Origin: Cellulosimicrobium cellulans
GTDB lineage: Bacteria; Actinomycetota; Actinomycetes; Actinomycetales; Cellulomonadaceae
NCBI RefSeq assembly: GCF_016921195.1
Contig: NZ_JAFGYF010000001.1
Location: forward strand, 620,001-684,000
DNA: 64,000 nt
Direction: 5' to 3'
In this document: positions 1 to 58,430 of the stretch, one piece after another
Position numbering within the stretch: position 1 is the first letter of the stretch
How the letters are laid out: the number at the start of each line of letters is the position of its first letter
Notes under the pieces: model-generated
Databases searched by the model: none
What the model saw: the letters and a program-made list of their open reading frames with translations, nothing else
What the model was told of the DNA's origin: nothing
Program-made: the position numbers and the translations under genes

Positions 1-759
1 CAGTGGGTCAAGGACCACGCCGACCCCACGCTGACGTTCCGGTGGTCGTGCAAGATGGCGGTCTGCGGGAGCTGCGGCGTCAGGGTCAACGGCCGCCCGG
101 TGCTCGGGTGCGAGACGTTCGTGCGCGGCTACCGCACGTCGGGCCTGGTCGTCGAGCCGCTCGCGCACGCCGACGTGCTGCGCGACCTCGTCGTCGACAC
201 CGACACGTTCCTCGGCAAGCTCGCCACCGTGCAGCCCTGGCTCGTGCCCGACGGCGCCACGCGCCTCCCGCTCGTCGACCCGCCCTCGGCCGGGGTCGGG
301 GCTGAAGCCGGCGCCGGGGCGGGGGCCGGCGCCGGGGGCGAGGTGGGCGAGGACGTCGACGGCCCGCCGGCGCCGGACGGCGGCGACGTGCTGCGGGCGG
401 TCGGGCCGACGTTGGGCTACCGGCAGACGCCCGGCGAGCTCGCCGCGTTCAAGGGCTTCGCCGAGTGCATCGACTGCATGCTCTGCTACGCGGCGTGCCC
501 ACAGCTCGACGTCGCGCCCGACTTCCTCGGCCCGGCCGTCGTCGCGACGGCACGCCGCTGGGACGAGGACTCGCGCGACGCGGGCGAGCTCGACCGCGCC
601 GACGTCCTCGACACCGAGTTCGGCGCCTGGCCGTGCATCCAGGTCGGCGCGTGCACGCAGGTCTGCCCCAAGGGTGTGGACCCGGCCCGCGCGCTCCGCG
701 ACGCCCAGCGCGTCGCGACGGACACGTGGGAAGCGCGCGAACGCCGTCGCGCGAGGTAG
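1..759 (+). CDS. sdhB: Succinate dehydrogenase/fumarate reductase iron-sulfur subunit (5' end missing)
   Basis: This subunit carries electrons from the flavoprotein to the membrane quinone site of complex II. The gene enters the window already open in frame 1, so its N-terminus and start lie upstream. Cysteines of the [2Fe-2S] ligand set are seen in SCKMAVCGSCG (about codons 16-26). A CIDCMLCYAACP motif (codons about 157-168) fits the [4Fe-4S] cluster, and CIQVGACTQVCPKG fits the [3Fe-4S] cluster region. An Ala/Gly-rich insert (AEAGAGAGAGAGGEVGEDVD, codons about 101-120) sits between the two cluster domains, where homologues usually have a short linker. The TAG stop (757-759) lies inside the first unit of a 21-bp repeat array. 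The flavoprotein and anchor genes are presumably upstream. Confidence 0.95.
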   Translation, partial: QWVKDHADPTLTFRWSCKMAVCGSCGVRVNGRPVLGCETFVRGYRTSGLVVEPLAHADVLRDLVVDTDTFLGKLATVQPWLVPDGATRLPLVDPPSAGVGAEAGAGAGAGAGGEVGEDVDGPPAPDGGDVLRAVGPTLGYRQTPGELAAFKGFAECIDCMLCYAACPQLDVAPDFLGPAVVATARRWDEDSRDAGELDRADVLDTEFGAWPCIQVGACTQVCPKGVDPARALRDAQRVATDTWEARERRRAR

Positions 760-854
760 AACTTCGGTACGCCGAGGTAGAACCCTGGTTCGCCGAGACA
801 GAACCCTGGTCATGACCACGGTTCTACCTCGCGCTACCAGGGTTCTACCCCGGC
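751..854. repeat. 21-bp repeat array A between convergent sdhB and pgm
   Basis: Three units read forward (751-770, 771-791, 792-812; core CGAGGTAGAACCCTGGT) and two read in reverse (about 815-853), with a 21-bp period. Each set is in the sense of the gene it follows. GGTAGAACCCTGGT at 776-789 is exactly complementary to 836-849. The inner copies (800-825) form a near-palindrome with one mismatch. The sdhB stop codon is part of the first unit. A bidirectional terminator or 3'-end structure is the simplest reading. Confidence 0.85.
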
Positions 855-861
855 GGGACGA

Positions 862-2556
862 TCAGCTGCCGAGAGCGGCGGAGACGACGTCCTTCGCCTC
901 GGCCTGGACCTGGGTCAGGTGCTCGGCGGAGACGAACGACTCGGCGTAGATCTTGTAGACGTTCTCCGTGCCCGACGGCCGGGCCGCGAACCACGCGTTC
1001 TCGGTCGTGACCTTGAGCCCGCCGATCGGGGCGTCGTTACCGGGCGCGTCGGTGAGCTTCGCGGTGATCGGCTCGCCCGCGAGCTCGGTCGCGGTGACCT
1101 GCTCGGGAGAGAGCTTGCCGAGCGTCGCCTTCTCCTCGAGCGTCGCGGGCGCGTCGACCCGGGCGTACCAGGACTCGCCGTACTTCTCGACGAGGTCGCG
1201 GTGGTGCTCGGACGGGGTGCGGCCCGTCGTCGCGATGATCTCCGACGCGAGCAGCGCGAGGAGCAGGCCGTCCTTGTCCGTGGACCAGACGCGGCCGTCC
1301 TTGCGCAGGAACGACGCCCCCGCGGACTCCTCGCCGCCGAACCCGACCGAACCGTCGAGCAGACCGGGCACGAACCACTTGAACCCGACGGGGACCTCGA
1401 CGAGCCGGCGACCGAGCCCGCCCGCGACCCGGTCGATGAGCGCGGACGACACGAGCGTCTTGCCGATCGCGGCGTCGTCGCGCCAGCCCTCGCGCGCGCC
1501 GCCGTAGAGGTACTGGATCGCGACGGCGAGGTAGTGGTTGGGGTTCATGAGCCCGGCGTCGGGCGTGACGATCCCGTGGCGGTCGGAGTCGGCGTCGTTG
1601 CCGGTCGCGACGTCGAACGGCGCGCCGCCCTCGGCGTCGCCGGACTCCCCGGTCATGCCCGAGACGAGGGACGCCATCGCGTACGGCGACGAGCAGTCCA
1701 TGCGGATCTTGCCGTCCCAGTCGAGCGTCATGAACGCCCACCGCGGGTCGACCCGCGGGTTGACGACCGTGAGGTCGAGCCCGTACCGCTCGCCGATCTC
1801 GCCCCAGTACTCGACCGACGCGCCGCCCAGCGGGTCGGCGCCGATCCGCACGCCGGAGTCGCGGATGGCGTCGAGGTCGAGGACGTTCGCCAGGTCGTCG
1901 ACGTACGTGGTGAGGAAGTCGTGCTTGTGCACGTGCTCGGACGTGAGCGCCTGGGTCAGCGGCACGCGCGGCACGCTGCCGACGCCGGTGCGCAGGATCT
2001 CGTTCGCGCGGTCCGCGATCCAGCCGGTCGCCTCGGACCCGGCGGGGCCGCCGTGCGGCGGGTTGTACTTGAAGCCGCCGTCGCGCGGGGGGTTGTGCGA
2101 CGGCGTGACGACGATCCCGTCCGCGAGGCCCGGGCCGGTGGTGCGGACGCCGTCGACCGTCGTCGCCTCGTTGTGCAGGAGGATCGACTGCGAGACGGCG
2201 GGCGTCGGGGTGAACGAGTCGCGCGCGTCGACGTACGTCTGGACGCCCGCCGCGACGAGCACCTCGAGCGCGGTCTGCCACGCGGGCAGCGACAGCGCGT
2301 GCGTGTCGCGCCCGATGAACAGCGGGCCGTCCGTGCCCTGCGAGCGCCGGTACTCGACGATCGCCGCGGTGATGGCGATGATGTGCGCCTCGTTGAACGC
2401 GTGGTCCAGGCTCGACCCCCGGTGGCCCGACGTGCCGAACACGACCTTCTGGGCCGGGTCGTCGACGTCGGGCGTGAGGTCGTAGTAGGCGCCGACCACG
2501 GCGTCGACGTCGATGAGGTCGCTGGGCTGGGCGGGCATGCCGGCGCGGGGATCCAT
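862..2556 (-). CDS. pgm: Alpha-D-glucose-specific phosphoglucomutase
   Basis: Interconverts glucose 1-phosphate and glucose 6-phosphate in glycogen, trehalose and cell-wall sugar metabolism; cytosolic. The 564-residue product is close to the usual ~546 of the E. coli Pgm type. The N-terminus ([15 protein letters not shown]) and the following [13 protein letters not shown] match that family. The phosphoserine loop is [13 protein letters not shown], with a metal-binding DADSDRHG further on. The ATG at 2556 is chosen because its N-terminus aligns with the family start. The gene is monocistronic, between repeat arrays A and B. Confidence 0.97.
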
Positions 2557-2606
2557 GGGTCGATCCTGCCAGGGGTGGCGGTTGCGCGTCAGCCGTTACC
2601 ACGCCC

Positions 2607-2690
2607 GACCAGCGTTCTACCTCGATCGACCAGGGTTCTATTTCGACCGACCAGGGTTCTACCTCGCGCGATCGGGGCTCTACCTCGGCT
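2607..2690 (-). repeat. 21-bp repeat array B downstream of a TetR gene
   Basis: Four head-to-tail units on the minus strand (2607-2627, 2628-2648, 2649-2669, 2670-2690) have an exact 21-bp period. All point in the direction of the TetR gene they follow. No opposite-facing copies are present, and the next gene (pgm) runs the same way. The first unit read by the TetR transcript contains that gene's TAG stop codon (2682-2680). Confidence 0.85.
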
Positions 2691-3612
2691 CGGCGGCGTT
2701 CGCGCGGTCGATCGCCATCTCGACGGCGTCGAGCAGGCGGTCGAGGCTCGCGTCGAACGGGCCCTGGGGGGCGTCGAAACCGCCCGCGACGTAGACGCGC
2801 GTCATGACGGGGTAGCGCTCGACGTCGAACCAGTCCTCCCAGAAGCTGCCGAGCGTCGTCCAGTACTCGTCGTTGCCCACGCCGGTCGCGTCGCGCTCGG
2901 TCCGCTCGGCGATCGTGGCGCGCGCGAGGCCCTGGACGTAGTTGTCGACGAGGCCGAGGGTGTCGACGACCTGGAGCTCGGAGAGGCCCGTGTCGACGAT
3001 CGTCCGCAGCCCGGCCTCCTGGGCGTCGAGCACGTGGGGCGCGAGCGGGGCGCGCCACATGTTGGTCTGCAGGATCCACGGGTGGCGCAGGTAGAGGTTC
3101 CACAGCTCGTGCGCGTACTGCGCGAGCGCGGGCCGCCACGGCGCGCCGGCCTCGGGCAGGTCGAGCTCGGCGTACGCGCGGTCGATCATGAGGTCGACGA
3201 GCTCGGTGCGGCCGGGCACGTACGTGTAGAGCGACATCGCGCCGACGCCGAGCTCCGTCGCGACGCGCCGCATGGAGAGCGCGTCGAGGCCGCCCTCCTG
3301 CGCGACGGCGATCCCGGCGTTGACGACGTCGTCGAGCGTGAGCCGCGGCTTGCGCCCCCGCGTCGCGGGCGCGGGCGGGTCCCAGAGGAGGGCGAGGCGC
3401 CGGGTGATCTCCGGCGTGCGGACGACCTCCGTGAACTGGGCCCGCGCGTGCTCGGCGGCCTGCACGGCGGAGGCGACCCCGGCGTCCGCGGCCGCGACGA
3501 CGCCGCGCGGGCGCTGCTCCGACTCCTCCTGCTCCGGGGTCGCGGGCGAGGGCTGCGGGGAGCCCGACGGCGCGCGGTCGCCGTCGCGCTCGTCGGTGCG
3601 GTCGGTCGTCAC
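2680..3612 (-). CDS. TetR-family regulator, divergent from an ABC exporter
   Basis: Probable repressor of the adjacent DrrAB-like exporter. From the chosen start the product is 310 residues. It has an acidic, disordered N-terminal extension of about 90 residues, then the helix-turn-helix (residues about 90-140, including LDALSMRRVATELGVGAMSL), then a ligand domain resembling the TetR_C (tetracycline-repressor type) family. The GTG at 3612 is chosen because a GGGGAGG ribosome site lies 7 nt upstream. A longer reading from 3690 has no such site and would overlap the promoter region. The stop codon is inside repeat array B. The ligand is unknown. Confidence 0.85.
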   Translation of the reverse strand: MTTDRTDERDGDRAPSGSPQPSPATPEQEESEQRPRGVVAAADAGVASAVQAAEHARAQFTEVVRTPEITRRLALLWDPPAPATRGRKPRLTLDDVVNAGIAVAQEGGLDALSMRRVATELGVGAMSLYTYVPGRTELVDLMIDRAYAELDLPEAGAPWRPALAQYAHELWNLYLRHPWILQTNMWRAPLAPHVLDAQEAGLRTIVDTGLSELQVVDTLGLVDNYVQGLARATIAERTERDATGVGNDEYWTTLGSFWEDWFDVERYPVMTRVYVAGGFDAPQGPFDASLDRLLDAVEMAIDRANAAEPR

Positions 3613-3744
3613 GTGCGTATCCTCCCCGACTTCGGTCGTGCCCCGCCCGGACGACCCCGGCGGGACAAAGGCTTGCCTCTTCCCGTACACCGTATGCTAA
3701 CGTGGGTCGTCAATTTCGGTACGGCGTACGAAAGGGTGGCTCCG
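3613..3744. promoter_or_regulatory. Divergent promoter region with a TetR-type operator
   Basis: The region separates the TetR gene from the ABC exporter. A 20-bp inverted repeat TTTCGGTACGGCGTACGAAA (3714-3733) lies just before the exporter start; its arms are TTTCG-TAC and GTA-GAAA with one asymmetric base each side. A related GTAC/GTAT-containing stretch is at 3684-3702. The position fits an autoregulatory operator that also controls the exporter. This is an inference. Confidence 0.6.
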
Positions 3745-4767
3745 GTGATCCGAGCCCGTGGCCTGACCAAGACCTTCTACCGCAAGAAAGAGACCGTCGA
3801 GGCCGTCAAGGGCATCGACGTCGACGTCCGTGGGGGCGAGCTCGTCGCGTTCCTCGGCCCCAACGGGGCCGGCAAGTCCACGACGTTGAGGATGCTCACG
3901 AGCCTCCTCGAACCGACCGCCGGGACCGCGGAGGTCGCCGGCTACGACGTCGCGCGGCACCCCGCGCACGTGCGCTCGCGCATCGGCTTCATCGGGCAGG
4001 GCAACGGGGGCGGGTACTCCTACCGCGTGCTCGACGAGCTGCACAACCAGGGCCGTTTCTACGGCCTGCCGCCCGGCGAGTACACGCAGCGGGCCGCCGA
4101 CCTGCTCGCCGCGCTCGACCTCGGCGGGCTCGAGAAGCGCGCCGTGCAGTCGCTCTCCGGCGGCCAGCGGCGCCGGCTCGACGTCGCGCTCGGGCTCATG
4201 AACCACCCGCCGCTGCTCTTCCTCGACGAGCCGACGACGGGACTCGACCCCCACGCGCGCGCCAACCTCTGGGAGCACATCGCCGCGATGCGCGAGCGGT
4301 ACGGCATGACGATCGTGCTCACCACGCACTACCTCGATGAGGCCGACAGCATGGCCGAGCGCGTCGTCGTCATCGACCACGGCGAGATCATCGCCGACGC
4401 CACGCCGGACGCGCTCAAGCGCGACCACGCCGACGACGTCATCACGCTCGCGGTGGTCCCCGCGGCCGGCGGTGGCAACCTGTCGGGCGGAGCCTCGGGC
4501 GAGGGGTCGGGCGCGGTGCCCGACGTCGTCGGCCGCGTCCGCGCGTCCCTCGCCGAGGACGTGGGCCAGGTCGAGACCGCGAGCGGCGCCGACGGCGTCG
4601 TGACCGTCCGCATCTCGACGACCCACGGCGCCGACCGGCTGCCCGAGGCCATCGAGGCGCTGCGCGTCGGCGGCCTGGTGGTGCGCTCGGCCGAGCTCAA
4701 GCAGGCGAGCCTCGACGACGTGTTCCTCAACCTCACCGGGCGCAGCCTGCGAGAGGAGGCAGCATGA
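3745..4767 (+). CDS. ABC transporter ATP-binding protein, DrrA type
   Basis: Nucleotide-binding subunit of an ABC-2 exporter, probably for a drug or other hydrophobic compound. It shows Walker A GPNGAGKST, the signature LSGGQRRRLDVALG, Walker B LLFLDEPTTGLDP and the H-loop TTHYLDEAD. A C-terminal extension of about 80 residues resembles DUF4162 of daunorubicin-type exporters. The GTG at 3745 is preferred because AAAGGG lies 8 nt upstream; a GTG at 3736 would be too close to it. The product is 340 residues. The gene overlaps the permease gene by 4 nt (ATGA), so the two are translationally coupled. Confidence 0.93.
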   Translation: MIRARGLTKTFYRKKETVEAVKGIDVDVRGGELVAFLGPNGAGKSTTLRMLTSLLEPTAGTAEVAGYDVARHPAHVRSRIGFIGQGNGGGYSYRVLDELHNQGRFYGLPPGEYTQRAADLLAALDLGGLEKRAVQSLSGGQRRRLDVALGLMNHPPLLFLDEPTTGLDPHARANLWEHIAAMRERYGMTIVLTTHYLDEADSMAERVVVIDHGEIIADATPDALKRDHADDVITLAVVPAAGGGNLSGGASGEGSGAVPDVVGRVRASLAEDVGQVETASGADGVVTVRISTTHGADRLPEAIEALRVGGLVVRSAELKQASLDDVFLNLTGRSLREEAA

Positions 4768-5624
4768 GCACGCGCACCGACCTCCCGTCGCCGGCGAGCC
4801 GGACGACGCCCGGCGGCGACGCCCTCCTGCGGACCGGGGCCGCAAAGTTCCTCGCCGACACCTGGGCCGTCTTCACGCGCGAGATCCTGCTCGTGCTGCG
4901 CGACCCGTTCACGCTGATCTTCTCGTTGCTGCAGCCGCTGATCTTCCTCGGGCTGTTCGGCCCGCTCCTCACCGGAGCCGTCGGCGGGTTCGGGGGCGGG
5001 GCGCCCGGTGGCGGCGGGTCCACCGCGGAGACGCTGCAGTGGTTCGTGCCCGGCGTGATCGTCATGATCTCGCTGTTCGGCACGTCCATGAGCGGGTCCA
5101 ACCTGCTCTACGAGATGATGACCGGCTCCTACGAGCGCGTCCTCGCGACACCGCTCGACCGCTCGGCGATCCTCGTGGGCCGCTCGCTCAAGGAGTTCGC
5201 GCCGCTCGTCGTGCAGGGCCTGCTCATCGCGCTCGTCTGCGTCCCGTTCGGGTTCACGCTCTACCCGCTGCACCTGCTCGTCGGCCTGCTGCTTCTCGGT
5301 CTGTTCGGCATCGGCGTCGGCGCGCTGTCCATCGCGCTCGCGCTCGCCGCGAAGAACCGCGAGTGGCTGTTCTGGGGCGTGCAGCAGTCGCTGCTGTTCC
5401 CCCTTCTCATCCTGTCCGGCATGATGCTGCCGCTCGAGGCCGGGCCGGCGTGGATGCGCACGGCGGCGCTGTTCAACCCGCTCACCTACATCGTGGACGC
5501 CGAGCGCGCGCTGCTCGCCGGGTCGTTCGCGGACACCGACGTGCTGTGGGGCTTCGTCGCCGCCGCGGTGACGTGCGTCGTCGGCCTGTGGGTCGGCATC
5601 CGCCGCACCCGCAAGACCGTCTGA
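4764..5624 (+). CDS. ABC-2 type exporter permease, DrrB type
   Basis: Membrane subunit of the exporter. The 286-residue protein has about six hydrophobic segments: one near residue 55 (FTLIFSLLQPLIFLGLFGPL), a run at about 95-210, and a final one near the C-terminus before the basic tail GIRRTRKTV. FNPLTYIVDAERALLAG near the end is typical of ABC-2 permeases of the DrrB/NodJ group. The start ATG overlaps the stop of the ATPase gene. Repeat array C begins about 7 bp after the TGA. The substrate cannot be told from sequence; TetR control suggests a toxic compound. Confidence 0.92.
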   Translation: MSTRTDLPSPASRTTPGGDALLRTGAAKFLADTWAVFTREILLVLRDPFTLIFSLLQPLIFLGLFGPLLTGAVGGFGGGAPGGGGSTAETLQWFVPGVIVMISLFGTSMSGSNLLYEMMTGSYERVLATPLDRSAILVGRSLKEFAPLVVQGLLIALVCVPFGFTLYPLHLLVGLLLLGLFGIGVGALSIALALAAKNREWLFWGVQQSLLFPLLILSGMMLPLEAGPAWMRTAALFNPLTYIVDAERALLAGSFADTDVLWGFVAAAVTCVVGLWVGIRRTRKTV

Positions 5625-5630
5625 CCAGAA

Positions 5631-5759
5631 CCCGAGGTAGGGGCCCCGGTAGCTCGAGGTAGAGGCCCGGTCCGTGACCCCGCGTCCATCTCGGCCTACC
5701 ACGCCTCTACCTCGAGCTACCGGGCCTCTACCTCGGTGGACCGGAGCTCTATCGCGGCA
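5631..5759. repeat. 21-bp repeat array C between convergent exporter and nrdG
   Basis: Two forward units (5631-5651, 5652-5673) face four reverse units (5676-5696, 5697-5717, 5718-5738, 5739-5759). Here the core is changed to GAGGTAGAGGCCCGGT, and the facing copy at 5719-5735 carries the matching change (ACCGGGCCTCTACCTCG). A 17-bp stem is therefore kept. The last codons of nrdG run through two of the reverse units. Confidence 0.85.
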
Positions 5760-6313
5760 GGTGGATGCCAGGGGACCGCGCGGCTCGACGCGAGGGAGGC
5801 CCGCGCGTCGAGCACGCGCTGGTTGGTGCTGCCGCGGAACGCGAGCGTGAGGTCGCGGCGCGCGAGCTCGAACCGGCCGTCGACCAGCACGTCGACCTCG
5901 GCGAGCAGCGCGCGCTGGTCCGCGGTCCCCGCGCGCAGCTCCTCCAGGGTGTAGCCCGTCCAGCACCACACGTCCCGGCGGTCGCCGAGCTCGGCGCGCA
6001 GCCGACGCACGAGGCGCAGGCACACGCCCGTGTTGAGGAACGGCTCGCCGCCGAGCAGGGACAGGCCCTGCACGGCGGGGTGCGCGAGGTCGGCGAGGAC
6101 GCGGTCCTCCAGGGTGTCGTCGTACGGGCGCCCGTAGCGGAAGCTCCACGCGGCCTCGTTGAAGCAGCCCTCGCACGCGAACAGGCACCCGCTCACGTAC
6201 AGCGAGCAGCGCACGCCCTCGCCGTCCACCATGACGAACGGCTTGTAGTCCGCGACGTACCCCCGGCTGACGCGGTCCGAGCGCCAGCCGGGGCCGGGGG
6301 TGCGCGTGGTCAC
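5717..6313 (-). CDS. nrdG: Anaerobic ribonucleotide reductase activating enzyme
   Basis: Radical-SAM enzyme that makes the glycyl radical on NrdD. The cluster motif C-x3-C-x2-C is present (C43, C47, C50 in CLFACEGC), followed by the SAM-binding LLGGEPF and WCWTGYTLEEL. The product is 198 residues from GTG at 6313; that start overlaps the nrdD stop by 4 nt (GTGA), so the pair is an operon. The family-like sequence ends around AVPWHPP. The last dozen residues (IELRSTEVEAR) are encoded by 21-bp repeat units, so the repeat appears to have been added to the C-terminus. Confidence 0.95.
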   Translation of the reverse strand: MTTRTPGPGWRSDRVSRGYVADYKPFVMVDGEGVRCSLYVSGCLFACEGCFNEAAWSFRYGRPYDDTLEDRVLADLAHPAVQGLSLLGGEPFLNTGVCLRLVRRLRAELGDRRDVWCWTGYTLEELRAGTADQRALLAEVDVLVDGRFELARRDLTLAFRGSTNQRVLDARASLASSRAVPWHPPAAIELRSTEVEAR

Positions 6314-8508
6314 GCCGACGCCGGGTCCGCCAGGTGCTTGACCCGCGCGGAGATCTCCGCGTGGCGGCCGTGCACCATGGGGCGCTGCTGCGGGTTGCCG
6401 AGGTATCCGCACGTGCGCTTCACGACGTCGCACGTGCGCGGGTCGGCGTTGCCGCACGAGGGGCACGCGAAGCCGCGCGCGGTCGGGTCGAAGTCGCCCG
6501 TGAACCCGCACGCGTAGCAGCGGTCGATGGGCGTGTTCGTGCCGAGGTAGCCCACGCGGTCGTACGCGTAGTCCCACACGGCCTCCAGCGCCTTCGGGTT
6601 CTGCTGGAGCACCGGGTACTCGCAGTAGTGGATGAAACCGCCCGACGTGTACCGCGCGTACTCGGCCTCGAAGTCGAGCTTCTCGAACGGCGTCGGGCTC
6701 TTGCGGACGTCGTAGTGGAAGCTGTTCGTGTAGTAGTCCTTGTCGGTGATGTCGGGCACCGCGCCGAACCGCTCCCGGTCGAGGCGGCAGAACCGGTCGG
6801 TCAGGCTCTCGCTCGGCGTCGCGTAGACGCTGATCCGGTAGCCGAGCCGCGCCGTCCACCCGGCGGCGTGCGCGTGCAGGGACCGCAGCACGTCGAGCGT
6901 GAGCTCCTTGGCCCGCGGGTCGTGCTCCCAGGCGCCGCCGTAGAACGCGGCGGCGACCTCGTACAGCCCGATGTACCCGAGCGACACCGTGGCGCGGCCG
7001 TCGCGGAAGAGCCGGTCGACGTCGTCGCCGGGAGCGAGGCGCTCCCCGAACGCCCCGTGGACGTAGAGGATCGGCGCGTTGCCCGGCGTCGCCTCCTTGC
7101 AGCGCTCGATGCGGAGGACGAGCGCGTCGTGCACGGTCTCCAGGCGCTCGTCGAGCAGGCGCCAGAACGCGTCGGGGTCGCCGTCCGCCTCGAGCGCGAT
7201 GCGCGGGAGGTTGAGCGTCACGACGCCGAGGTTCATGCGCCCCTCCGAGACGTCCCGGCCGTGCTCGTCCTGCCAGCCCTGGAGGAACGACCGGCACCCC
7301 ATGGGCACCTTGAACGACCCGGTGAGCTCGACGATCTTGTCGTACGACAGCACGTCCGGGTACATGCGCTTCGTCGCGCACTCGACCGCGAGCTGCTTGA
7401 GGTCGTGGTTGGGGTCGCCGGGGTCGAGGTTCACGCCGCGGCGCAGCGTGAAGATGAGCTTGGGGAAGATCGCGGTGCGGCCCTCGCTGCCGAGACCTCG
7501 GATGCGGATCTGGAGGATCGCGCGCTGGATCTCGCGCTCCAGCCAGCCCGTGCCGAGCCCGAACCCGACCGACGTGAACGGCGTCTGCCCGTTCGACGTG
7601 AACAGGGTGTTGATCTCGTACTCCAGCGACTGCATCGCGTCGTAGATGTCCTTGCGCGTCTTCTCCCGCGCGTACTCCTCGTGCGCGGACTCGTCGGCGA
7701 TCCACCGGCGCGCGTCCGCGCGGTGCTTCTCCAGGTTGCGCTCGGCGTAGGGGGCGAGGAGCTCGTCGATGCGGTTGACCGAGCACCCGCCGTACTGGCT
7801 GGAGGACACGTTCGCGATGATCTGGCTGATCTGCGCCGTCGCGGTCTGGATCGAGCGGGGCGGCTCCACCTGCGCGTTCCCGATCCGGAAGCCGCTCGAC
7901 AGCATCGACCGGAAGTCGATGAGGCAGCAGTTCGTCATGGGCGCGTACGGGTGGTAGTCGAGGTCGTGGTAGTGCAGGTCGCCCTTCTGGTGCGCGTTCG
8001 CGACGTGCGGCGGCAGCATCCGCAGCCCGATCGCCTTGCCCACGGTCCCGGCCGTGAGGTCGCGCTGGGTGTTGAAGACCTCGCTGTCCTTGTTCGCGTT
8101 CTCGTTGACGACCGTCGAGTCCTTGTCGAGCAGCCGCACGATCGAGTGGTTGAGGTCCGTCGCGCGGCTGCGTGCGAAGTCGCGCTGCACGCGGTAGTCG
8201 ATGTAGGCGCGCGCGACGTCGTACTCGTGCGACTCGAGGAGCACGTGCTCGACGACGCCCTGGATCTCGTAGATCTTCACGGTCGCGTCGAACCGCGCCG
8301 CGATCTCCGCGTCGACCCGGTCGACGACCTCCGCCACTCGGCGGCGGTGCGTCGCCGTGAGGTCGCCGTGCACCTCCGCGAACGCCTTCGTCACGGCGGC
8401 GCGGATGCGGGCGTCGTCGAACGGCCGTCGGCGGCCGTCGCGCTTGAGGACCTCCAGCGTGGCGGTCGTGCGGTGCGGTGCTGCCTGGTCGAGCTCGATG
8501 GCGGTCAT
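6310..8508 (-). CDS. nrdD: Anaerobic ribonucleoside-triphosphate reductase, class III
   Basis: Reduces NTPs to dNTPs without oxygen, using a glycyl radical. The 732-residue protein has an N-terminal ATP-cone (residues about 15-110). The catalytic barrel includes NCCLID and GNAPILYVHG, a C-terminal zinc site (CYACGF...CPSCG) follows, and the radical loop RTCGYLG has its glycine at 701. The ATG at 8508 has GAGGGGAC upstream. The gene leads the nrdDG operon, and two NrdR boxes lie about 60-110 bp upstream. Its presence indicates a capacity for anaerobic growth. Confidence 0.97.
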   Translation of the reverse strand: MTAIELDQAAPHRTTATLEVLKRDGRRRPFDDARIRAAVTKAFAEVHGDLTATHRRRVAEVVDRVDAEIAARFDATVKIYEIQGVVEHVLLESHEYDVARAYIDYRVQRDFARSRATDLNHSIVRLLDKDSTVVNENANKDSEVFNTQRDLTAGTVGKAIGLRMLPPHVANAHQKGDLHYHDLDYHPYAPMTNCCLIDFRSMLSSGFRIGNAQVEPPRSIQTATAQISQIIANVSSSQYGGCSVNRIDELLAPYAERNLEKHRADARRWIADESAHEEYAREKTRKDIYDAMQSLEYEINTLFTSNGQTPFTSVGFGLGTGWLEREIQRAILQIRIRGLGSEGRTAIFPKLIFTLRRGVNLDPGDPNHDLKQLAVECATKRMYPDVLSYDKIVELTGSFKVPMGCRSFLQGWQDEHGRDVSEGRMNLGVVTLNLPRIALEADGDPDAFWRLLDERLETVHDALVLRIERCKEATPGNAPILYVHGAFGERLAPGDDVDRLFRDGRATVSLGYIGLYEVAAAFYGGAWEHDPRAKELTLDVLRSLHAHAAGWTARLGYRISVYATPSESLTDRFCRLDRERFGAVPDITDKDYYTNSFHYDVRKSPTPFEKLDFEAEYARYTSGGFIHYCEYPVLQQNPKALEAVWDYAYDRVGYLGTNTPIDRCYACGFTGDFDPTARGFACPSCGNADPRTCDVVKRTCGYLGNPQQRPMVHGRHAEISARVKHLADPASA

Positions 8509-8569
8509 CGCTCGTCCCCTCTGCCCACCGGGTTCTCGCCGGCGCGCAGGGGTTGCGCGACGGACCGTA

Positions 8570-32819: not shown

Positions 32820-32911
32820 CTTGAAGGCGATCCCCGACCGTCTCACGAGTAACGCACCTCACGTGAAGGGCGCCGACCGGACCCGGCCGACGGAGCGGAA
32901 GTCCCGACTAC

Positions 32912-33103
32912 CGCGAGGTAGAACCGCAGTCACCCGAGAGAGAACGCTGGTCGCGCGAGGTAGAACCGTGGTTACCACCCGCTCCGAACACCCGAGCCGA
33001 CCGGGCGCCGTCGGGCACAAAGACCCACGGTTCTACTTCGCGTGACCACGGTTCTACTTCGCGCGACCAGCGTTCTACTTCGCGCGATCGGGTTCCCTCG
33101 GCG
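32912..33103. repeat. 21-bp repeat array D between hmuO and hmuT
   Basis: Three forward units (from 32912, 32933 and 32954) face three good reverse units and a fourth degenerate one (33023-33103), all with a 21-bp period. The local core is GAGGTAGAACCGTGGT and the facing copies read ACCACGGTTCTACTTCG, so complementarity is kept, with one G-U-compatible change. The reverse units follow hmuO in its sense. The forward units lie upstream of hmuT with no plus-strand gene before them. Confidence 0.85.
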
Positions 33104-33772
33104 TTAGGGGTGGACGGCACCGAGGTCGGCGAAGAGGTCGCTGTTGAGGCGGAAGGCGTGCTTGGCCTCCGCGACGGTCTCGTCGAGCTGCTCGGGTGTG
33201 AGGACCAGGCCGTCGAGGCGCTCGCGGTAGACGTCCTTGAACGGCTTGGACTTGGGGATCTCGACGAACGTGTAGAACGCGAGGCCGTCGCCCGACAGGC
33301 CGTAGTGGCGCTCGAGCATGCGCTTGATGATCTGTCCGCCGGAGAGGTCGCCGAGGTAGCGCGTGTACGCGTGCGCGGCGTACGCGGGCAGCGACGTGCC
33401 GACGGTCCGCAGCCGCGCGACGTAGCGCTCGGTCGCGGGGTGGATGGTGATGCGCTCGGCCCAGTCGGCACCGACGAGGAACGTGAGGTCCTTCTCGATC
33501 TCCGGCGTGCGCGTGAGCTCGTCGAAGACGAGCGTGGAGCCCTGGGCGTCGGCGCGCATGTGCGCGCTCGCGTCCTCGAGCGCGCCGTAGACGGCCCACT
33601 GCTGCGCGGCGAGGTCGGCGTACGCCGCGACGTCGAGCCGCCCGGACATGAGCCGCTCGACGAACCCGGAGCTCTCCGCCTGCTCGTGCTCGGGGCGCGT
33701 GCCCTCGCGCAGGCGCTGGGACAGCGGCACGGTCTCGTCGGCGCGGTCGAGGTCGTGGGTGAGAGCAGTCAC
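33104..33772 (-). CDS. hmuO: Heme oxygenase
   Basis: Opens imported heme to biliverdin, CO and iron in the cytosol. The 222-residue protein has the proximal ligand His29 in TRPEHEQAESSGF and the distal-helix signature AYTRYLGDLSGGQ (about 140-152). The GTG at 33772 has AGGAG 6 nt upstream. It is transcribed alone in the same direction as hmuTUV, and an iron box about 85 bp upstream indicates shared iron control. Its TAA stop lies at the edge of repeat array D. Confidence 0.96.
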   Translation of the reverse strand: MTALTHDLDRADETVPLSQRLREGTRPEHEQAESSGFVERLMSGRLDVAAYADLAAQQWAVYGALEDASAHMRADAQGSTLVFDELTRTPEIEKDLTFLVGADWAERITIHPATERYVARLRTVGTSLPAYAAHAYTRYLGDLSGGQIIKRMLERHYGLSGDGLAFYTFVEIPKSKPFKDVYRERLDGLVLTPEQLDETVAEAKHAFRLNSDLFADLGAVHP

Positions 33773-49038: not shown

Positions 49039-52000
49039 GGCGCCACGCTCCCGACGCGCGACGCGGAGCCCGCCGCCCCGGTGCGTTCGTCCGGATCCTC
49101 GCCCGTGCCCTCGCCGGTGCCGTCGCCTTCGTCCGCCGCGTGGAGCGCGGCGACGGTGAGCAGCGGCACCGCCGGGATGAGCGCGACGAGCGCGATCCGC
49201 ACGCCGAAGTCGTTGACGAGCGAGCCCGCGACGGCCACGATCCACAGCGCGAGCAGGGTCGGGCGCACGAGGGGCCACGCGGCCTCCGTGCGTGCGAACC
49301 AGCGCGGCGTGAAGCGCCGGGGCCAGAAGAGCAGCAGCGCGGCGCCGACGAGCACGGCGATCGTCAGCCACACCGGCACTCCGCCGAGCACGGACCGCGC
49401 CGCGTAGCCCGCCTTGCGGAGCAGCGTCTCCCACGCCGACCCGTCGACGACCTGCCCGACGAACCGGCCGAGGTGCGAGCGCTCGTCGGCCGGGCGCAGC
49501 CAGTCGAGCACGCCGACGGCGGCGACGAGCGCGACGCCCGCCGCGGCGACGAGCAGGAAGCGCCGCCACGTGACGCGCGCGCCCGAGGCGGCGAGCCCTA
49601 GCACCGCGAACGCCGGCACGACGACGAGCCCGCCGCCGAGGTCGGCGCCGAGCGTCGGCCACACGTCCACGACCATCGTCACGAGGCCGATGACGCCCAC
49701 GGTCGCGGCGGCGGCGTACCGGTGGCCGCGCGCGACGAGCCACTGTGCGAGCGCCGCGGCGACGACGAGCGCGGCGACCGCGTACACGGAGAACGTCGGG
49801 TTCCCGAACCCGTAGAACCGCGCACCGAAGGTGGGCGCGGAGCCGAGCGGGCTCGCCCGGTTGAGCGGGGTGCCGACGAGCGCGTCGAGCGTGAGCACCG
49901 CGAACGTGAGTCCCGCGACGATCCCCGGGCCGAGCCAGACCGGGCGACGCGGGGCGAGCGCGCCCAGTCCGGCGACGGCGGCCGTCGCGAGGACCGTGGA
50001 CACGACGATCGCGAGCGTCTGGTCACCGAACCGCCACCAGCCCGTGAGCGACACGAGGAAGGCGGCGGTGGGCACCGCGGCGACGACGAGCGCCGCCCCG
50101 CGGGCCCAGTGCGTCGCCCGGGCCCACCGGGCGCGTGCCCGGTCGCCCGTCGCGCGCGCGGCGCGCGGCGCGAGCAGGAGGCAGAGCCCGGCGACCACGA
50201 GTCCCGCGTAGAGCGGCACGTCGACGAACGCGGTGTAGACGGCGCGGCGCACGTGGTCGCGCGTCGTGAGGTCGGCGAGGGCGTCGGCGGTCGACGTCGC
50301 GTCCGCCGGGCGCGGCGAGCCCCAGGCGAGCGGCGTGTCCTGGATGCGCGCCGGCATCGCGGCGCCTGCGGCGTCGAGCACGGTCGCGGGCACGTCGAGC
50401 ACGCGCGCGACGCCGTCGGTCCGGGTGGCGGCGCTCGTCAGGTAGCGCGACTGGTCGGGTCCGTCGGACGACGGGCGCACGAGCGCCGTGCCGAGCGCCG
50501 GCCGCGTGCCGGGCGTGCCGGCGACGTCGACGACGAGCACGGTCGTGCCGCTCGGGGCGGCGTCGAGCACGGCGCCGACGGTCGCGTCGACCGCGGTCAG
50601 GCGGTCGGCGCGCAGGGTGCTGCGCAGCGTGGCGCGCTCGTCCGCCGGGAGGTCGGGGTCGACGACGGGCGGGGTCGCGTCGCCCGCGTCCACGACGGTC
50701 ACCGGGCACGCGAACGCGTCGGAGCCGGCGGTCGTCGCGGCCGGGAGGTCGCGGTAGCGCGCGACACGGCCCGTGGAGTCCGCGAGCACGACCGCCGCGC
50801 CCGGGCCGACCGCCGTCGCGCACACCGCGCCGTCGGCGCCGGCCGCGGCGAGCGCGTCGCCGAGGACGCCGAGGCGTGCCTGGTAGCCCGAGCCGCGCTG
50901 GAGCGCGACCAGGTCGTCCCAGCCCTCGACCTGCGCACCGTCCGCGCCGTCGGGGGCGGGCTGCGCCGTCGGGCACGCCCACGCGCCGTCGGGCGCGCGC
51001 TCGGTCGCGACCTCGGCGAGCTGGCCGGCGGAGAGCGCGAGCCAGCCGCCGACGGTGCAGCGGCTCGCCGCGCCCGTGGGCTGGGAGACGCCGCCGGCGC
51101 CCGCGCCATCGGTGAGCAGGGCGTGGAGGGTCGGGGTGGCCGACGACGTGACGTCGCCCCACGTGACGCCCGTGGTGCCGACGACGACGATCGGCCGGTC
51201 CGTCGCGATCGCGTCGGAGCGGGTCGCCGAGGCCTCGCCGCCCGCCGGGGCGGCGCTGGCCGCCGGCCGGAGCCCCGCGGAGGCGAGCACCGTCGAGGCG
51301 AGCAGGACGACGAGCAGGAGCCCGCCCCCCACGGTCGCGAGCATGGTCGGCATGCGCCGGATCCCCGGCTCGGGGACGGTGCCCGCAGGCTGCCGGGGCG
51401 CGGGGCGGGCGAGGAACCCCGGGACGATCATCGCGGTCGCGACGACGACGACCATGACGGCGATGATGACGCCCGAGTCGTTGAGGACGGAGCCGACGCC
51501 CGCGACGACGACGAGCGCCACGACCAGCGGGCGCAGCATCGGCCAGGTCTCGTAGGCCCGCGCGACCTCCGGGAGGCGGAACCGCTCGGGGCGCAGCACG
51601 GCGACGGCCACGAGGACCACGAGGACCGCGGCGACCGCGCCCAGCGGGTTCGCGAGGGTGGCCCACGCGCCGAGCGCCTTGCGGCCGATCACGTCGAGCG
51701 CGGCGCCGTCCACGACGGTCTGGACGAACCCGCCGAGGTGCGACCGCCCGCCCGGCAGCAGCCAGTCCACGACCGCGACGACCACGACGACGAGCACCGT
51801 CGCCAGCGCGACGACGAGCGCGCGCAGCCACGTGATGCGGATGCGGCCCACGAGCAGCGCAAGGACGGCGAACGCGGGGACGAGGGCGAGGATGCCGCCG
51901 AAGTCGGCGCCGAACGCGGGCCAGCCGTCGATGACGACCGTGACCGCGCCGACGGCGACGACGGCCCAGGCGGCGAGCCGGCGTCGTCCGCGGGCGATCG

Positions 52001-53747: not shown

Positions 53748-53753
53748 CGGACC

Positions 53754-53759
53754 AGCCTA
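53754..53759 (-). promoter_or_regulatory. -10 hexamer of a leaderless promoter
   Basis: TAGGCT on the minus strand lies 6 nt before the GTG (53747) of the duplicated membrane protein gene. No ribosome-binding site is present. Confidence 0.55.
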
Positions 53760-53871
53760 CGGGGGTGCGTCGCGCCACCCCCGACCGTCGCGGCGGCGTC
53801 GCCGCAGGTCCGCGCGCGACGCTCACGCGGCCTCCACGGCGGCTGCGCGCAATCCCCTGGACGTCCCAATC

Positions 53872-53905
53872 TGTACCCGTGTACAACTTGTACCCATGTA
53901 CAAGT
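53872..53905. promoter_or_regulatory. Double TetR operator before the FBP-TetR operon
   Basis: TGTAC-CCGT-GTACA (53872-53885) is followed at once by the perfect palindrome ACTTGTAC-CCAT-GTACAAGT (53886-53905). Two adjacent sites 13-14 bp apart suggest cooperative binding by the TetR protein encoded second in the operon. Confidence 0.8.
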
Positions 53906-53918
53906 CTTGGATCCGGTC

Positions 53919-54443
53919 GTGCGAGCGCTGACCCGGGCGGAGGTGCGGGCCGCCGTCGTCAACGTCGACCCGACGGAGGGGAGGGTCCGCCTGCCCGGCC
54001 ACTTCGACGAGCTGCGCTGGGACGAGCTCGACTACCTCGGGTGGCGTGACCCGCGCGCGCCGTCGCGCGCCTTCCTCGTGGCGGACGTCGACGGGCGGGC
54101 GCTCGGCGCGGTCCTGCGCCAGAGCCCGAGCCATGCCGAGGTCGGCTCGCGCGCCGTGATGTGCGCGCTGTGCCGGTTCTCGCGGCGGTTCAACGAGGTG
54201 GCGCTCTTCGCGGCGCACCGGCCGTCGACGGACCGGAGGAAGCGGCTCAGCAGCGTGGGCCTCCTGCTGTGCACCGACCTGGACTGCCACCGGAACGTCC
54301 GGGTCGTGCACGCCGGCGGCCCGCTCGACCCCTCGCCGGAGGAGGTCGTGCGGACTCGTCGGGAGGGCCTGCGGGCGCGTACCGTCGCGTTCCTGAACAC
54401 CCTGACCGACGGCGCCCCCGCGGCGCGGACGAGGAGTCGTTGA
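53919..54443 (+). CDS. FBP-type treble-clef zinc-finger protein
   Basis: A 174-residue protein with the C-terminal treble-clef zinc finger found in the FBP family: C82-x2-C85 (CALCRFSRR) and C118-x4-C123 (CTDLDC). The N-terminal domain (LGWRDPRAPSRAFLVADVDG) is typical of these actinobacterial proteins. The finger resembles one in EF-G-binding (FusB-like) proteins, so a ribosome- or EF-G-related role in drug resistance is possible but unproven. The GTG at 53919 is the likely start. The stop overlaps the next ATG by one base. Confidence 0.85.
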   Translation: MRALTRAEVRAAVVNVDPTEGRVRLPGHFDELRWDELDYLGWRDPRAPSRAFLVADVDGRALGAVLRQSPSHAEVGSRAVMCALCRFSRRFNEVALFAAHRPSTDRRKRLSSVGLLLCTDLDCHRNVRVVHAGGPLDPSPEEVVRTRREGLRARTVAFLNTLTDGAPAARTRSR

Positions 54444-55009
54444 TGGCCTACCTGCCGCGCGCGGAGCGTCGGGACTCCATCGTCGCCGCGGCCGCCGCCG
54501 TCGTGCGCCGCGACGGTCTCGGGGCCGTCACCGCGCGCGTCGTCGCCGACGAGCTCGGCGGGTCGCCCGGGCAGATCCACCACCACTTCACGTCGACGGA
54601 CGAGCTGGTCGCCGAGGCGTGGCGGCGGTACGCCGACGAGGAGGTCGCCCGCTTCGAGGACGTGGCACGCGGCCGCTCCGCGCGGGCCGCGGTGGAGCTC
54701 TTCTTCGAGGACCTCCTCGCACCCGGGGGCGACGGGCGGGCGCTCGCCCGCTGGGCGGAGGCCGGGGCGCACGCCCAGCTGCGGCCGGTCGTCGCGCGGG
54801 CGTACGTCGACACGCTCGCGCGGCTGACGGACGTCCTGGCCGACCACCTCGGCGACCGGGGCGACGGGGGCCGCCGGGAGGCCGCGGGGCGCCTGCTCAT
54901 GGTCGGCGTCGGGCTCGCCGGCCTCACCCGGATCGGCGGGGACCGTGTGGTCCCCTCCTCTGCCGTCATAGGGTCGGCGATCGACGCGGAGACGGCCGCG
55001 GCGGGCTGA
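54443..55009 (+). CDS. TetR-family regulator
   Basis: A 188-residue regulator with an N-terminal helix-turn-helix (about 10-55) including VTARVVADELGGSPGQIHHH. It is the second gene of an operon with the FBP protein (TGATG overlap). It probably represses its own operon through the double GTAC palindrome upstream. Confidence 0.9.
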   Translation: MAYLPRAERRDSIVAAAAAVVRRDGLGAVTARVVADELGGSPGQIHHHFTSTDELVAEAWRRYADEEVARFEDVARGRSARAAVELFFEDLLAPGGDGRALARWAEAGAHAQLRPVVARAYVDTLARLTDVLADHLGDRGDGGRREAAGRLLMVGVGLAGLTRIGGDRVVPSSAVIGSAIDAETAAAG

Positions 55010-55046
55010 CCGCGCGACGCCGTCCCGGCGACGCCGGGACAGCGGG

Positions 55047-56180
55047 TCAGGCCGTGCGCACCACGAGCGCCCCCGGGTCGACGCGCGACTCGATCTCGAC
55101 CGCGAGGCCGAGCACGTCGCCGTCGACCTGCGCCTGCTCCCCGCCCTCGACGCGCACGCGCACGCGCCGTGCCCGCGCGTGGTCGATCCGCCCGATCTTG
55201 GCGGGCAGGTCGTTCCGGACGCCGAGACCCTGCATGACGACCTCGCCGAAGAGCTGCGCCCAGCCCACCACGCCACCGCGCGTGTCGACCGCCGCGACGT
55301 CGAGCACACCGTCGTCGATCACGGCGTCGGGCAGGAGCGTGATGCCGCCGGGGAGCCGGCCGCAGTTGCCGATCATGAGCGAGCGCAGGCGCGCGTCGAC
55401 GGGCGGCGAGTCGTCGAGCTGGATGCGGGCGCGCATGCGCCGACCGTGCAGGTGGCGGATCCCGGCGACGAAGTACGCGACCCACCCGACCTTCGCCTTG
55501 AGCTCGTCGTCGGCGTCGGCCACCATCGCGGCGTCGAACCCGAGACCCGCGATGACGAGGAAGATGTGCTCCTTGCCGGGCTCCCGGGCGGGGTCGAGGG
55601 TCGTGCCCTCCACGTCCCCGGGGCCCGCGGGGTCCGCGTACCGCAGGACCGTGACCCAGCCGACGTCGACCGGGCGGTCCGACCCCGCGATCACGACGGC
55701 GAGCGCGGCGCGCGCGTCGCCCACCGGGAGGTCGAGGTTGCGCGCGAGGAGGTTGCCGGTCCCCACCGGGACCAGCCCCATGGTGCGGCCGCTGCCGACC
55801 ATGCCCTCCGCGACCGCCCGGACCGTGCCGTCCCCGCCCACGGCGACGACGACGTCCGCCCCCTGGGCGAGCGCGGCGCGCGTCTGCCCGACGCCCGGGT
55901 CGGCGATCGTCGTCTCGAACCACAGCGGGTCCGGGAGGGCGGCGTCGGCGAAGGCGCGGCGCACCACGGCCTCCAGCCCCGCGACGTCGGGCTTCGACGG
56001 GTTGGCGACGAACGCGACGAGCTCGCGCGGGTCGTCCTCGACCGGGGGCTCCTGGGCGGGGGGCACGTCGCCGTGCGCGCGGCGCTGACGGGTCTGCTGC
56101 GCGCGCAGGCCCAGCGCGACGACGAGTGCCACGACCGCGACGGCGAGCGCCGCGATCGCGAGCCAGAGCGTCCAGGACAT
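55047..56180 (-). CDS. Diacylglycerol kinase-family lipid kinase
   Basis: A 377-residue protein. An N-terminal membrane anchor (about 4-27) is followed by a DAGK catalytic domain with VANPSK (58-63), GGDGT (115-119) and VPVGTGNLLARNLDLP. Such proteins phosphorylate diacylglycerol or related lipids and feed phospholipid recycling. The C-terminal beta domain (VEGGEQAQVDGDVLGLAVEI) is also typical. TACGGT lies 6 nt before the ATG (leaderless), only 49 bp from the serS -10 on the other strand. Confidence 0.9.
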   Translation of the reverse strand: MSWTLWLAIAALAVAVVALVVALGLRAQQTRQRRAHGDVPPAQEPPVEDDPRELVAFVANPSKPDVAGLEAVVRRAFADAALPDPLWFETTIADPGVGQTRAALAQGADVVVAVGGDGTVRAVAEGMVGSGRTMGLVPVGTGNLLARNLDLPVGDARAALAVVIAGSDRPVDVGWVTVLRYADPAGPGDVEGTTLDPAREPGKEHIFLVIAGLGFDAAMVADADDELKAKVGWVAYFVAGIRHLHGRRMRARIQLDDSPPVDARLRSLMIGNCGRLPGGITLLPDAVIDDGVLDVAAVDTRGGVVGWAQLFGEVVMQGLGVRNDLPAKIGRIDHARARRVRVRVEGGEQAQVDGDVLGLAVEIESRVDPGALVVRTA

Positions 56181-56186
56181 GGCGAC

Positions 56187-56246
56187 ACCGTAGCGGGGCC
56201 GGGGCGGGAAAGGACCGCGACCGGCGAGCGCGCGGTTCGTTAGGCT
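56187..56246. promoter_or_regulatory. Two divergent leaderless promoters
   Basis: Minus-strand TACGGT (56192-56187) is 6 nt before the lipid-kinase ATG. Plus-strand TAGGCT (56241-56246) is 6 nt before the serS GTG. The whole intergenic gap is only 72 bp, and neither start has a ribosome site. Confidence 0.65.
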
Positions 56247-56252
56247 GCTGGC

Positions 56253-57536
56253 GTGATCGACCTCCGCCTCCTGCGCGACAACCCCGACATCGTCCGTGCC
56301 AGCCAGGTCACCCGTGGTGACGACCCCGCGCTGGTGGACGCCGCCCTCGACGCCGACGCCCGCCACCGCGCCGCGCTGAGCGAGTTCGAGAGCCTGCGCG
56401 CCGAGCAGAAGTCCCTCGGCAAGCAGGTCGCCCAGGCGCAGGGCGAGGAGAAGCAGGAGCTGCTCGCACGTACCAAGCAGCTCGCGGCCGACGTCAAGGC
56501 GCGCCAGGCCGACGCGGACGCCGCCGGGGAGGAGCTGCGCGGGCTGCTATATCGCATCTCCAACGTCGTCGCGGGCGCGCCCGCGGGCGGCGAGGACGAC
56601 TACGTCGTGCTGCGCGAGGAGGGCACGATCCGCGACTTCGCCGCGGAAGGCTTCACCCCGCGCGACCACCTCGACCTCGGCGAGGGCCTGCGCGCGATCG
56701 ACACCGAGCGCGGAGCCAAGGTGTCGGGCGCGCGGTTCTACTACCTCACGGGTGTGGGCGCGCGCCTCGAGCTCGCGCTGCTCAACGCCGCGATGGACAC
56801 GGCGGTCGCCGCCGGGTTCACGCCCGTCATCACGCCGACGCTCGTGCGGCCCGAGGTCATGCAGGGCACCGGGTTCCTCGGCGCCCACGCGGACGAGATC
56901 TACCGCCTCGAGAAGGACGACCTCTACCTCGTCGGGACGAGCGAGGTGGCGCTCGCGGGCTACCACGCGAACGAGATCGTCGACCTCTCGGACGGGCCGC
57001 TGCGCTACGCCGGCTGGAGCGCGTGCTACCGCCGCGAGGCCGGCTCGCACGGCAAGGACGTGCGCGGCATCATCCGCGTGCACCAGTTCCACAAGGTCGA
57101 GATGTTCTCCTACTGCGACCCGGCCGACGCCGAGGCGGAGCACCAGCGCCTGCTCGGCTGGGAGGAGCAGATGCTGCGCCTCGTCGACCTGCCGTACCGC
57201 GTCATCGACACCGCCGCGGGCGACCTCGGGTCGAGCGCCGCGCGCAAGTTCGACTGCGAGGCGTGGCTGCCCACGCAGCAGCGCTACCTCGAGCTCACGT
57301 CGACGTCCAACTGCACGACCTTCCAGGCACGCCGCCTCAACGTGCGCGAGCGCGTCGAGGTGGACGGCAAGAGCGAGACGCGCACGGTCGCGACGCTCAA
57401 CGGCACGCTCGGCACGACGCGCTGGATCGTCGCGATCCTCGAGAACCACCAGCAGGCCGACGGCTCGGTCCGCGTGCCGGAGGGCCTGCGCCCGTACCTC
57501 GGGGGCCTCGAGGTCCTCGAGCCGGTGGTGGCGTGA
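56253..57536 (+). CDS. serS: Seryl-tRNA synthetase
   Basis: Charges tRNA-Ser. The 427-residue class II enzyme has an N-terminal coiled-coil arm (about 30-100), then the catalytic core with motif 2 ([20 protein letters not shown]) and motif 3 ([19 protein letters not shown]). [15 protein letters not shown] contributes to the active site. The start is GTG with TAGGCT 6 nt upstream and no ribosome site, so the mRNA is probably leaderless. The stop overlaps the next gene's GTG (GTGA). Confidence 0.98.
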
Positions 57537-58363
57537 CGGCTCCCCTGGTCCCGGACGACGCGTCCGGGCCGATGCTCGTCGCGCTCGACATCGACGGCAC
57601 GCTCATGTCGTACGACCAGGAGCTGTCGGAGGACGTGCGCGACGCCGTCGCGGACCTGCGCGCCGCGGGCCACCACGTCGTGCTCGCGTCCGGGCGCTCG
57701 CTCATCGCGATCACGCCCGTCGCGGAGATCCTGGGGATCGACCGCGGCTGGGTCGTCGCCTCGAACGGTGCGGTGACGGCGCGGCTGGACCCGGACGAGC
57801 CCGAGGGGTACGCGTTGGAGGACGTCGTCACGTTCGACCCGGGCCCGGCCCTGCGGCTCCTGCGCGAGCACCTGCCCGACGCGCGGTACGCGGTCGAGGA
57901 CGTCGGCGTCGGGTTCCGCATGAACGAGCTCTTCCCCGACGGCGAGCTCGACGGCGTGCACCGCGTCGTCGAGTTCGACGAGCTGTGGTCGGGCGAGGTC
58001 ACGCGCGTCATCGTCCGCTCGCCGGGGTCGACGAGCGAGCAGTTCCACGAGCTCGTCGAGCGCCTCGGCCTGGACGACGTGACGTACGCCGTCGGCTGGA
58101 CGGCGTGGATGGACATCGCGCCGCTGGGCGTCACGAAGGCGACCGGGCTCGAGCTCGTGCGGCGCGCGCTGCACGTCCAGCCCCACCGGACCGTCGCGGT
58201 CGGCGACGGGCGCAACGACGTCGAGATGCTCCGCTGGGCGGCCCGCGGCGTCGCGATGGGTCACGCGGACGCCGTCGTGCAGGCCGCAGCCGACGAGGTC
58301 ACCGGCTCGATCGAGGACGACGGCGCGGCCCACCTCCTGCGCGGCCTCCTGCCCGCGAGGTAG
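57533..58363 (+). CDS. Cof-type HAD phosphatase
   Basis: A 276-residue HAD-IIB hydrolase. The nucleophile motif is [13 protein letters not shown] (D19, D21), the Lys motif follows [11 protein letters not shown], and motif IV is [13 protein letters not shown] large C2-type cap lies in the middle (about 90-200). Substrates in this group are sugar phosphates or flavin-type phosphates. It is co-transcribed with serS. The last codons (ending PAR) and the TAG stop lie in the first unit of repeat array E. Confidence 0.92.
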
Positions 58364-58430
58364 AGCCCAGGTCCTACCTCGCGGTACCTGGGCTCTACCT
58401 CGGCGGACCGGGGCTCTACCTCGCGGGGAC
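58354..58430. repeat. 21-bp repeat array E between convergent HAD and map genes
   Basis: One forward unit (58354-58373) faces three reverse units with TA steps at 58375, 58396 and 58417. CGAGGTAGAGCCCAGGT (58356-58372) pairs exactly with ACCTGGGCTCTACCTCG (58386-58402), a 17-bp stem with a 13-nt loop. The TAG stop of the HAD gene (58361-58363) is inside this stem. Confidence 0.85.

Follow-up and report, generated by a model that had tools for sequence, protein, structure and literature searches.

Gene junctions of Cellulosimicrobium cellulans carry arrays of a 21-bp repeat that is probably a dispersed, proliferating element akin to the repetitive extragenic palindromes (REPs) but of a new form, surviving behind stop codons and in protein linkers, with facing copies whose predicted hairpins may act as terminators or caps. 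The form is new in that the unit is tandemly repeated and non-palindromic and that units stand in facing blocks; no REP-associated tyrosine transposase (RAYT) was found in the genus. The arrays were analyzed in a stretch of 64,000 nucleotides (the window, G000:C1:620001-684000) from the own genome (G000; 4.58 Mb, 23 contigs), and in further genomes of its genus and family. A unit pair hit two named loci, both of C. cellulans, which point to the genus but give no measure of distribution; one of them (L204) aligns with the own-genome stretch L101 across 8,038 bases with 91.4% identity. Cellulosimicrobium is assigned to Micrococcales by NCBI.

Position of the 21-bp arrays

Units were detected with a consensus followed by anchored extension. 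The window holds 25 of them in five arrays (752-852, 2608-2687, 5633-5756, 32914-33082, and 58356-58423), all of which an earlier note, made from the letters alone, had already located at gene junctions. The core quoted there, allowing up to 3 mismatches, matches 21 times in the window against a mean of 0.10 after shuffling, with none of 100 shuffles reaching 21; only two window units copy it exactly. The 21-bp unit is about CGAGGTAGARCCSYGGT plus 4 bp, while the array at 5633-5756 is built of a GAGGCCCGG-type variant. Spacing of 21 bp is exact for 136 of the 149 same-strand seed units that lie no more than 64 bp apart in the own-genome stretches read. As the earlier note had it, units run in the sense of the gene just ended (22 of 25), the other three being the forward units at 32914-32972, before hmuT, and Pfam agrees with its names for all eight gene ends. 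What it overlooked is that a TAG within the unit is itself the stop codon of three window genes (757-759 on the forward strand, 2680-2682 on the reverse, and 58361-58363 on the forward). Lone matches with 2 mismatches were set aside as chance, size- and dinucleotide-matched random sequence having given 5 to 11 units and none in arrays of two or more, and a position weight matrix iterated at a low threshold was abandoned after it drifted to coding noise.

The exact unit CGAGGTAGARCNNNGGT has 281 matches in the genome (129 forward and 152 reverse), and the reversed pattern has none. For gene calling, a codon model was trained with 864 kb of the own genome, and 19 arrays were counted in these 864 kb (at least 2 units, nearby runs merged, single units excluded): 7 between convergent genes, 7 between codirectional genes, 1 between divergent genes, and 4 within called genes. 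Of the last four, the array at A 225753 is doubtful because the match may be coding chance. By length, 16.1 of the 19 would be expected in coding sequence (p 1e-9). Among the 15 intergenic arrays, convergent junctions are overrepresented (7, against 2.66 expected; p 0.009), and the single divergent case compares with 3.8 expected (p 0.14). In 54 own-genome array rows, which include stretches picked around known units, 15 gene stops fall at unit positions 6 to 8, and 14 of these are TAG and 1 is TAA; TAG ends 79 of the 680 called genes overall. A further 36 arrays come from 15 other genomes of the genus and from G011, at loci picked for holding units and after dropping arrays that lie 300 bases or less from a locus end. 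Among these, 17 are convergent, 14 stops lie at unit positions 6 to 8, and 5 arrays are inside called genes. The link to gene 3' ends that the earlier note described is a strong bias, but it is no strict rule, as the 4 of 19 and 5 of 36 arrays within genes make clear.

Facing blocks and predicted hairpins

Arrays that contain both orientations follow one order, forward units and then reverse units. In the own genome this holds for all 16 mixed intergenic rows, including 7 between codirectional genes, where a single gene has its end. The two own-genome rows with the reverse order are inside GcvP- and HemD-like genes. Elsewhere the order holds in 24 of 25 mixed arrays, the exception (L186) being located at the GcvP-like gene of G065.

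This layout is accompanied by predicted folding. We folded 47 intergenic own-genome runs on the forward strand against letter shuffles: all 16 mixed runs fold strongly (z -4.1 to -11.5, median -7.9), whereas the 31 one-way runs, many of which are separated from their facing half by a spacer or by the hub element described below, have a median z of -0.4. The single unit contributes no palindrome beyond chance, since a stem of at least 5 bp occurs in 20 of 255 units and in 17 of 255 letter shuffles. Of 17 positions, the innermost facing arms share 15.5, compared with 14.0 for tandem neighbors and 14.6 for arms from different arrays (24, 370, and 3000 pairs, respectively; p 4e-5 and 0.0016). Rfam covariance models have no matches in the window, and at E up to 1 they return tRNA alone in L107, L103, and L115, loci that have arrays and hub copies.

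In the window, the earlier note had seen no hairpin at these gene ends, which is incorrect for four of the five arrays. Between the SdhB-like 4Fe-4S protein gene (100-759, forward) and the phosphoglucomutase gene pgm (862-2538, reverse), three forward units (752-810), the first of which supplies the sdhB stop, face two reverse units behind pgm (815-852) across a CATG (811-814), and together they form a long hairpin on both strands (740-880; z -8.6 forward, -8.3 reverse). Two forward units (5633-5671) follow the ABC-2 type permease gene (4764-5624, forward), and these face four reverse units (5677-5756; 5 mismatches in one of them) at the 3' end of an NrdG-like 4Fe-4S gene (Fer4_12; 5717-6313, reverse) that adjoins the NrdD gene; the called NrdG-like reading frame enters the reverse units, with its stop at 5717-5719 on the reverse strand, and the array folds with z -6.9 (5620-5765), this and the two z values that follow being from the forward strand only. 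At the fourth array, three forward units (32914-32972) upstream of a periplasmic-binding-protein gene (hmuT-like) are antisense to both neighboring genes. Behind the heme oxygenase gene (33104-33772, reverse) lie three reverse units (33024-33082), abutted by the left end of a reverse-strand remnant of the hub (32985-33023, approximate limits), and the part of the array folded (32905-33045) gives z -4.0. In the last array, one forward unit (58356-58372) provides the TAG stop of the HAD-type hydrolase gene (57533-58363, forward), and three reverse units (58365-58423), the first being degenerate and overlapping the forward unit, follow the M24 peptidase gene (methionine aminopeptidase-like, map; 58433-59227, reverse; z -5.3 for 58340-58440). 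Only the one-way array of four reverse units (2608-2687) behind the TetR-family regulator gene (2680-3612, reverse), whose TAG stop lies in the first unit, is without a hairpin (2600-2700, reverse strand, z +0.31).

A GC-rich hairpin behind the stop codon is a feature of intrinsic terminators, and it is present for the mixed arrays only. The role as a bidirectional terminator or 3'-end protector that the earlier note considered is plausible for the mixed arrays, going by predicted folding, and does not fit the one-way arrays.

Coding copies and variation among species

Arrays inside coding sequence were found in genes for a FabG4-like reductase, an EamA transporter, GcvP, a heavy-metal P-type ATPase, and HemD. 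The first three were compared in 13, 16, and 13 genomes, respectively, omitting loci with a split gene or a stop (L259-L262 for the reductase, L271 for EamA, and L293-L296 for GcvP): 0 to 8 units stand at one site, their presence is patchy, and all linker lengths are multiples of 3. Twenty-one base pairs correspond to two helix turns and also to seven codons, so that the coded linker is a heptapeptide repeat. Reverse units share one frame in five of five own-genome coding arrays, reading DQGSTS, GQGSTS, or DHGSTS, and DQASTS in GcvP; in GcvP and HemD the forward unit is read as RGRGVV. This frame may be tolerated as a hydrophilic linker.

The unit matches in 29 of 200 genomes of the family: 16 of these belong to the genus, which has 17 in the set, and 13 to the 183 genomes outside it. 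Exact units number 0 to 281 per genus genome, and the reversed pattern is absent from all 17. More than 4 matches in another genus occur only in G011 (19); since the reversed pattern has one match each in five of those other genomes, one or two matches there mean nothing.

Within the genus, the repeat turns over between species. Unit number and variants at the sdhB-pgm and map junctions differ by species, and several species have no units there. In G007 the map junction (L167) has two facing pairs of GAGATCGACC where sister species have GAGGTAGA units, and the sdhB-pgm junction has a single facing pair. Word counts in 200 kb of each genome point to GAGATCGACC in G007, CGAGGTAGTACC and GAGATCGGCAG in G124, and CGAGGTAGAACC in G011. 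No such word appeared in 200 kb of G184, which counts against the repeat being a trait of the whole family. At unit position 9, G stands in 93% of 46 G098 units and A in 95% of 39 G124 units; at position 8, 74% of G124 units have T, as against 1% of 230 own-genome units. Such species-typical variants would be expected from homogenization or spread of units inside one genome. Most units of the genus contain GTAG preceded by conserved CGAG or CGAG-like bases; GTAG is absent from the G007 word and from one of the two G124 words. The second facing family of G124, GAGATCGGCAG, has a period near 19 bp (C1:56141-56246 and 132483-132550; L218 and L222) and shares the genome with the CGAGGTAGTACC family.

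Relation to known repeats and origin of the arrays

The earlier note likened the arrays to bacterial interspersed mosaic elements (BIMEs), which are bound by gyrase, IHF, or DNA polymerase I. The likeness is close in dispersal, location at gene 3' ends, convergent bias, and the folding of facing blocks; it fails in that BIME units are palindromic and alternate in orientation, whereas the present units are non-palindromic and are oriented blockwise, forward and then reverse. That no named element resembles the arrays, as was also claimed, is too strong a statement in view of the GTAG-tagged REPs (Di Nocera et al. 2013; PMC3733652). That report places them close to 3' ends, both where genes converge and where they run in one direction; they often supply a TAG stop, occur within genes, and may be moved by RAYTs. 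The present repeat shares with them a GTAG in most units, which in GTAG-tagged REPs is an unpaired motif at one unit end, and also facing pairs, species-typical families, the gene 3'-end position, the use of TAG as a stop, and copies in genes. It differs in its strict 21-bp head-to-tail blocks, in having no single-unit stem beyond chance (5 to 13 bp in GTAG-tagged REPs, by the table of PMC3733652), and in the units of G007 and of one G124 family that are without GTAG; the word Actinobacteria is absent from the report. The Y1 (RAYT-type) transposase family PF01797 has no match in the 17 genomes of the genus, while 5 of 14 control genomes are positive, and mobilization by a RAYT is unsupported. 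With a non-palindromic unit and no Y1 transposase found in the genus, we do not file the repeat as a GTAG-tagged REP, although it works like one.

Other known systems share some traits with the arrays. REPINs (REP doublets forming hairpins; Bertels and Rainey 2011; PMC3116915) are likewise dispersed and non-autonomous, with facing doublets predicted to fold, but they are linked to RAYTs, and the tandem arrays described for them are few and mostly of longer period, whereas tandem arrays are the usual form here. Rickettsia palindromic elements (PMC10969869) also have in-frame copies in unrelated protein genes, yet are about 150 bp long, in contrast to 21-bp tandem units that encode a heptapeptide repeat. 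Hairpin-cluster intrinsic terminators (PMC8355165) place hairpins shortly after stop codons as well, while the present, predicted ones are made of a dispersed repeat. No description of this repeat was found in searches of open-licence literature.

Many arrays are associated with a second repeat, a hairpin of about 166 bp that we call the hub. Ten of 15 distinct hub matches (14 from own-genome stretches and 1 from G124) start exactly at a unit; the remaining five comprise one truncated by a contig start and four that are incomplete or diverged. Hub matches occur in all 17 genomes of the genus. In the wider family, 48 of the 150 genomes, from 14 of 25 genera, match the hub core at E up to 0.001, a good many of them with a single weak match, and 33 genomes of 7 genera fall below 1e-8. 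In 16 sequences, hand-picked for spread from 13 genus genomes and G010, 97.2% of cells pair, and both-side changes occur in 13 of 31 pairs (shuffled mean 3.7; 0 of 500 shuffles as high); the loop they enclose is nearly invariant. The hub copy at L107:4504-4672 has the covarying stem and a nearly invariant loop of about 45 nt, and the hub has no Rfam match. Six of the eight contig starts read have a unit array within about 400 bases (L104, L110, L111, L116, L118, and L119; contigs C2, C3, C4, C5, C7, and C8), five of them inside a hub copy, and so these repeats probably break the assembly. At L106:5134-5568, a GNAT acetyltransferase gene is flanked by two unit arrays.

We favor an explanation in which the 21-bp unit multiplies in tandem and spreads between loci as a selfish repeat, with no RAYT-type transposase found in the genus. 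Units would persist where they do little harm, that is, just after stop codons and in in-frame protein linkers. Where forward and reverse blocks face each other, the transcript would fold into a stem of at least 17 bp with a loop of mostly 4 nt, and such hairpins would probably be U-less bidirectional terminators or 3'-end caps that are retained where useful. As to carriers, viral contigs hold no unit pair, and plasmids and phages gave no array-plus-hub match. Several observations weigh against this explanation. Neither transposition events nor target-site duplications nor an enzyme turned up, and one own-genome array pair with a hub lies between divergent genes (B 404050). No stem followed by a T run was found at arrays 752, 2608, 5633, and 58356 (window 1-6500 and 57500-59500 scanned), and one-way arrays without a hairpin stand at several gene ends, such as window 2608 (others are A 222224, 223393, and 343528; L112 5015; and L113 17874). 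The inner arms are few (24), with position 12 often mismatched (58% agreement), and since arrays homogenize, the arm agreement is no clean proof of selection. Orthologous junctions without arrays imply that the hairpin is dispensable or replaceable.

Some of these points bear equally on an alternative that is possible but considerably less probable, namely that the arrays are primarily functional bidirectional terminators, with selection at gene-dense junctions building and keeping facing units and tandem copies strengthening them. The position right after stops, the convergent bias, the hairpins, and the better-matched inner arms would all be accounted for, as would the recurrence of the facing layout in G007 and G124, where the unit sequences are different ones, and in G011, where the unit is the canonical one. 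It does not explain why one-way arrays lack a hairpin, why arrays lie inside coding sequence, or why sister species have none at orthologous junctions, and the arrays scanned are without a T run.

A rather doubtful alternative regards the arrays as ends or by-products of the hub, which would be a non-autonomous mobile hairpin whose insertion or excision leaves units behind. In its favor are the 10 of 15 hub matches that start right at a unit and a correlation between unit and hub counts across the 17 genomes (rho 0.74, p 0.0007; hub counts are rough, with 40 candidates scored per genome). Moreover, among 117 distinct runs of at least 3 units from all genomes, orthologous arrays included, degeneracy is greater in the gene-side unit than in the centre-side one for 62 runs and smaller for 33 (p 0.004). 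Many arrays, however, have no hub, 5 of the 15 hub matches do not abut a unit, and G134 combines 43 hub matches with 1 exact unit, while G142 has 35 and none. The gradient itself is less clear in the own genome alone (28 versus 15, p 0.066), and the outermost centre-side unit is worse than its neighbor (mean mismatch 1.46 versus 0.88), so that the degeneracy gradient gives a hint only of a possible polar growth of arrays. It is more speculative still, and in our judgment improbable, that array and hub belong to one RAYT-independent system of repeat growth, in which the hub would nucleate 21-bp units at its edge, young ones central and old ones gene-side, with polar growth decorating gene ends and the same process writing the heptapeptide linkers. 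Least probable is that the arrays would be sites for a dedicated DNA-binding protein serving chromosome organization or as a roadblock, its contacts lying on one helix face: the 21-bp spacing of 136 of 149 neighboring seeds and several strongly conserved unit positions would suit such sites, but 21 bp is also seven codons, the unit sequence drifts between species, and some sister species have few or no exact units.

A dispersed, proliferating repeat, as favored here, would widen the range of REP-like repeats to a genus of actinobacteria that gave no match to a RAYT-type transposase, and one sequence would yield both gene-end hairpins and protein linkers. If the hairpins terminate transcription, the way transcripts end in this GC-rich genus could be tested at each locus, and sister species with and without an array would serve as natural pairs.

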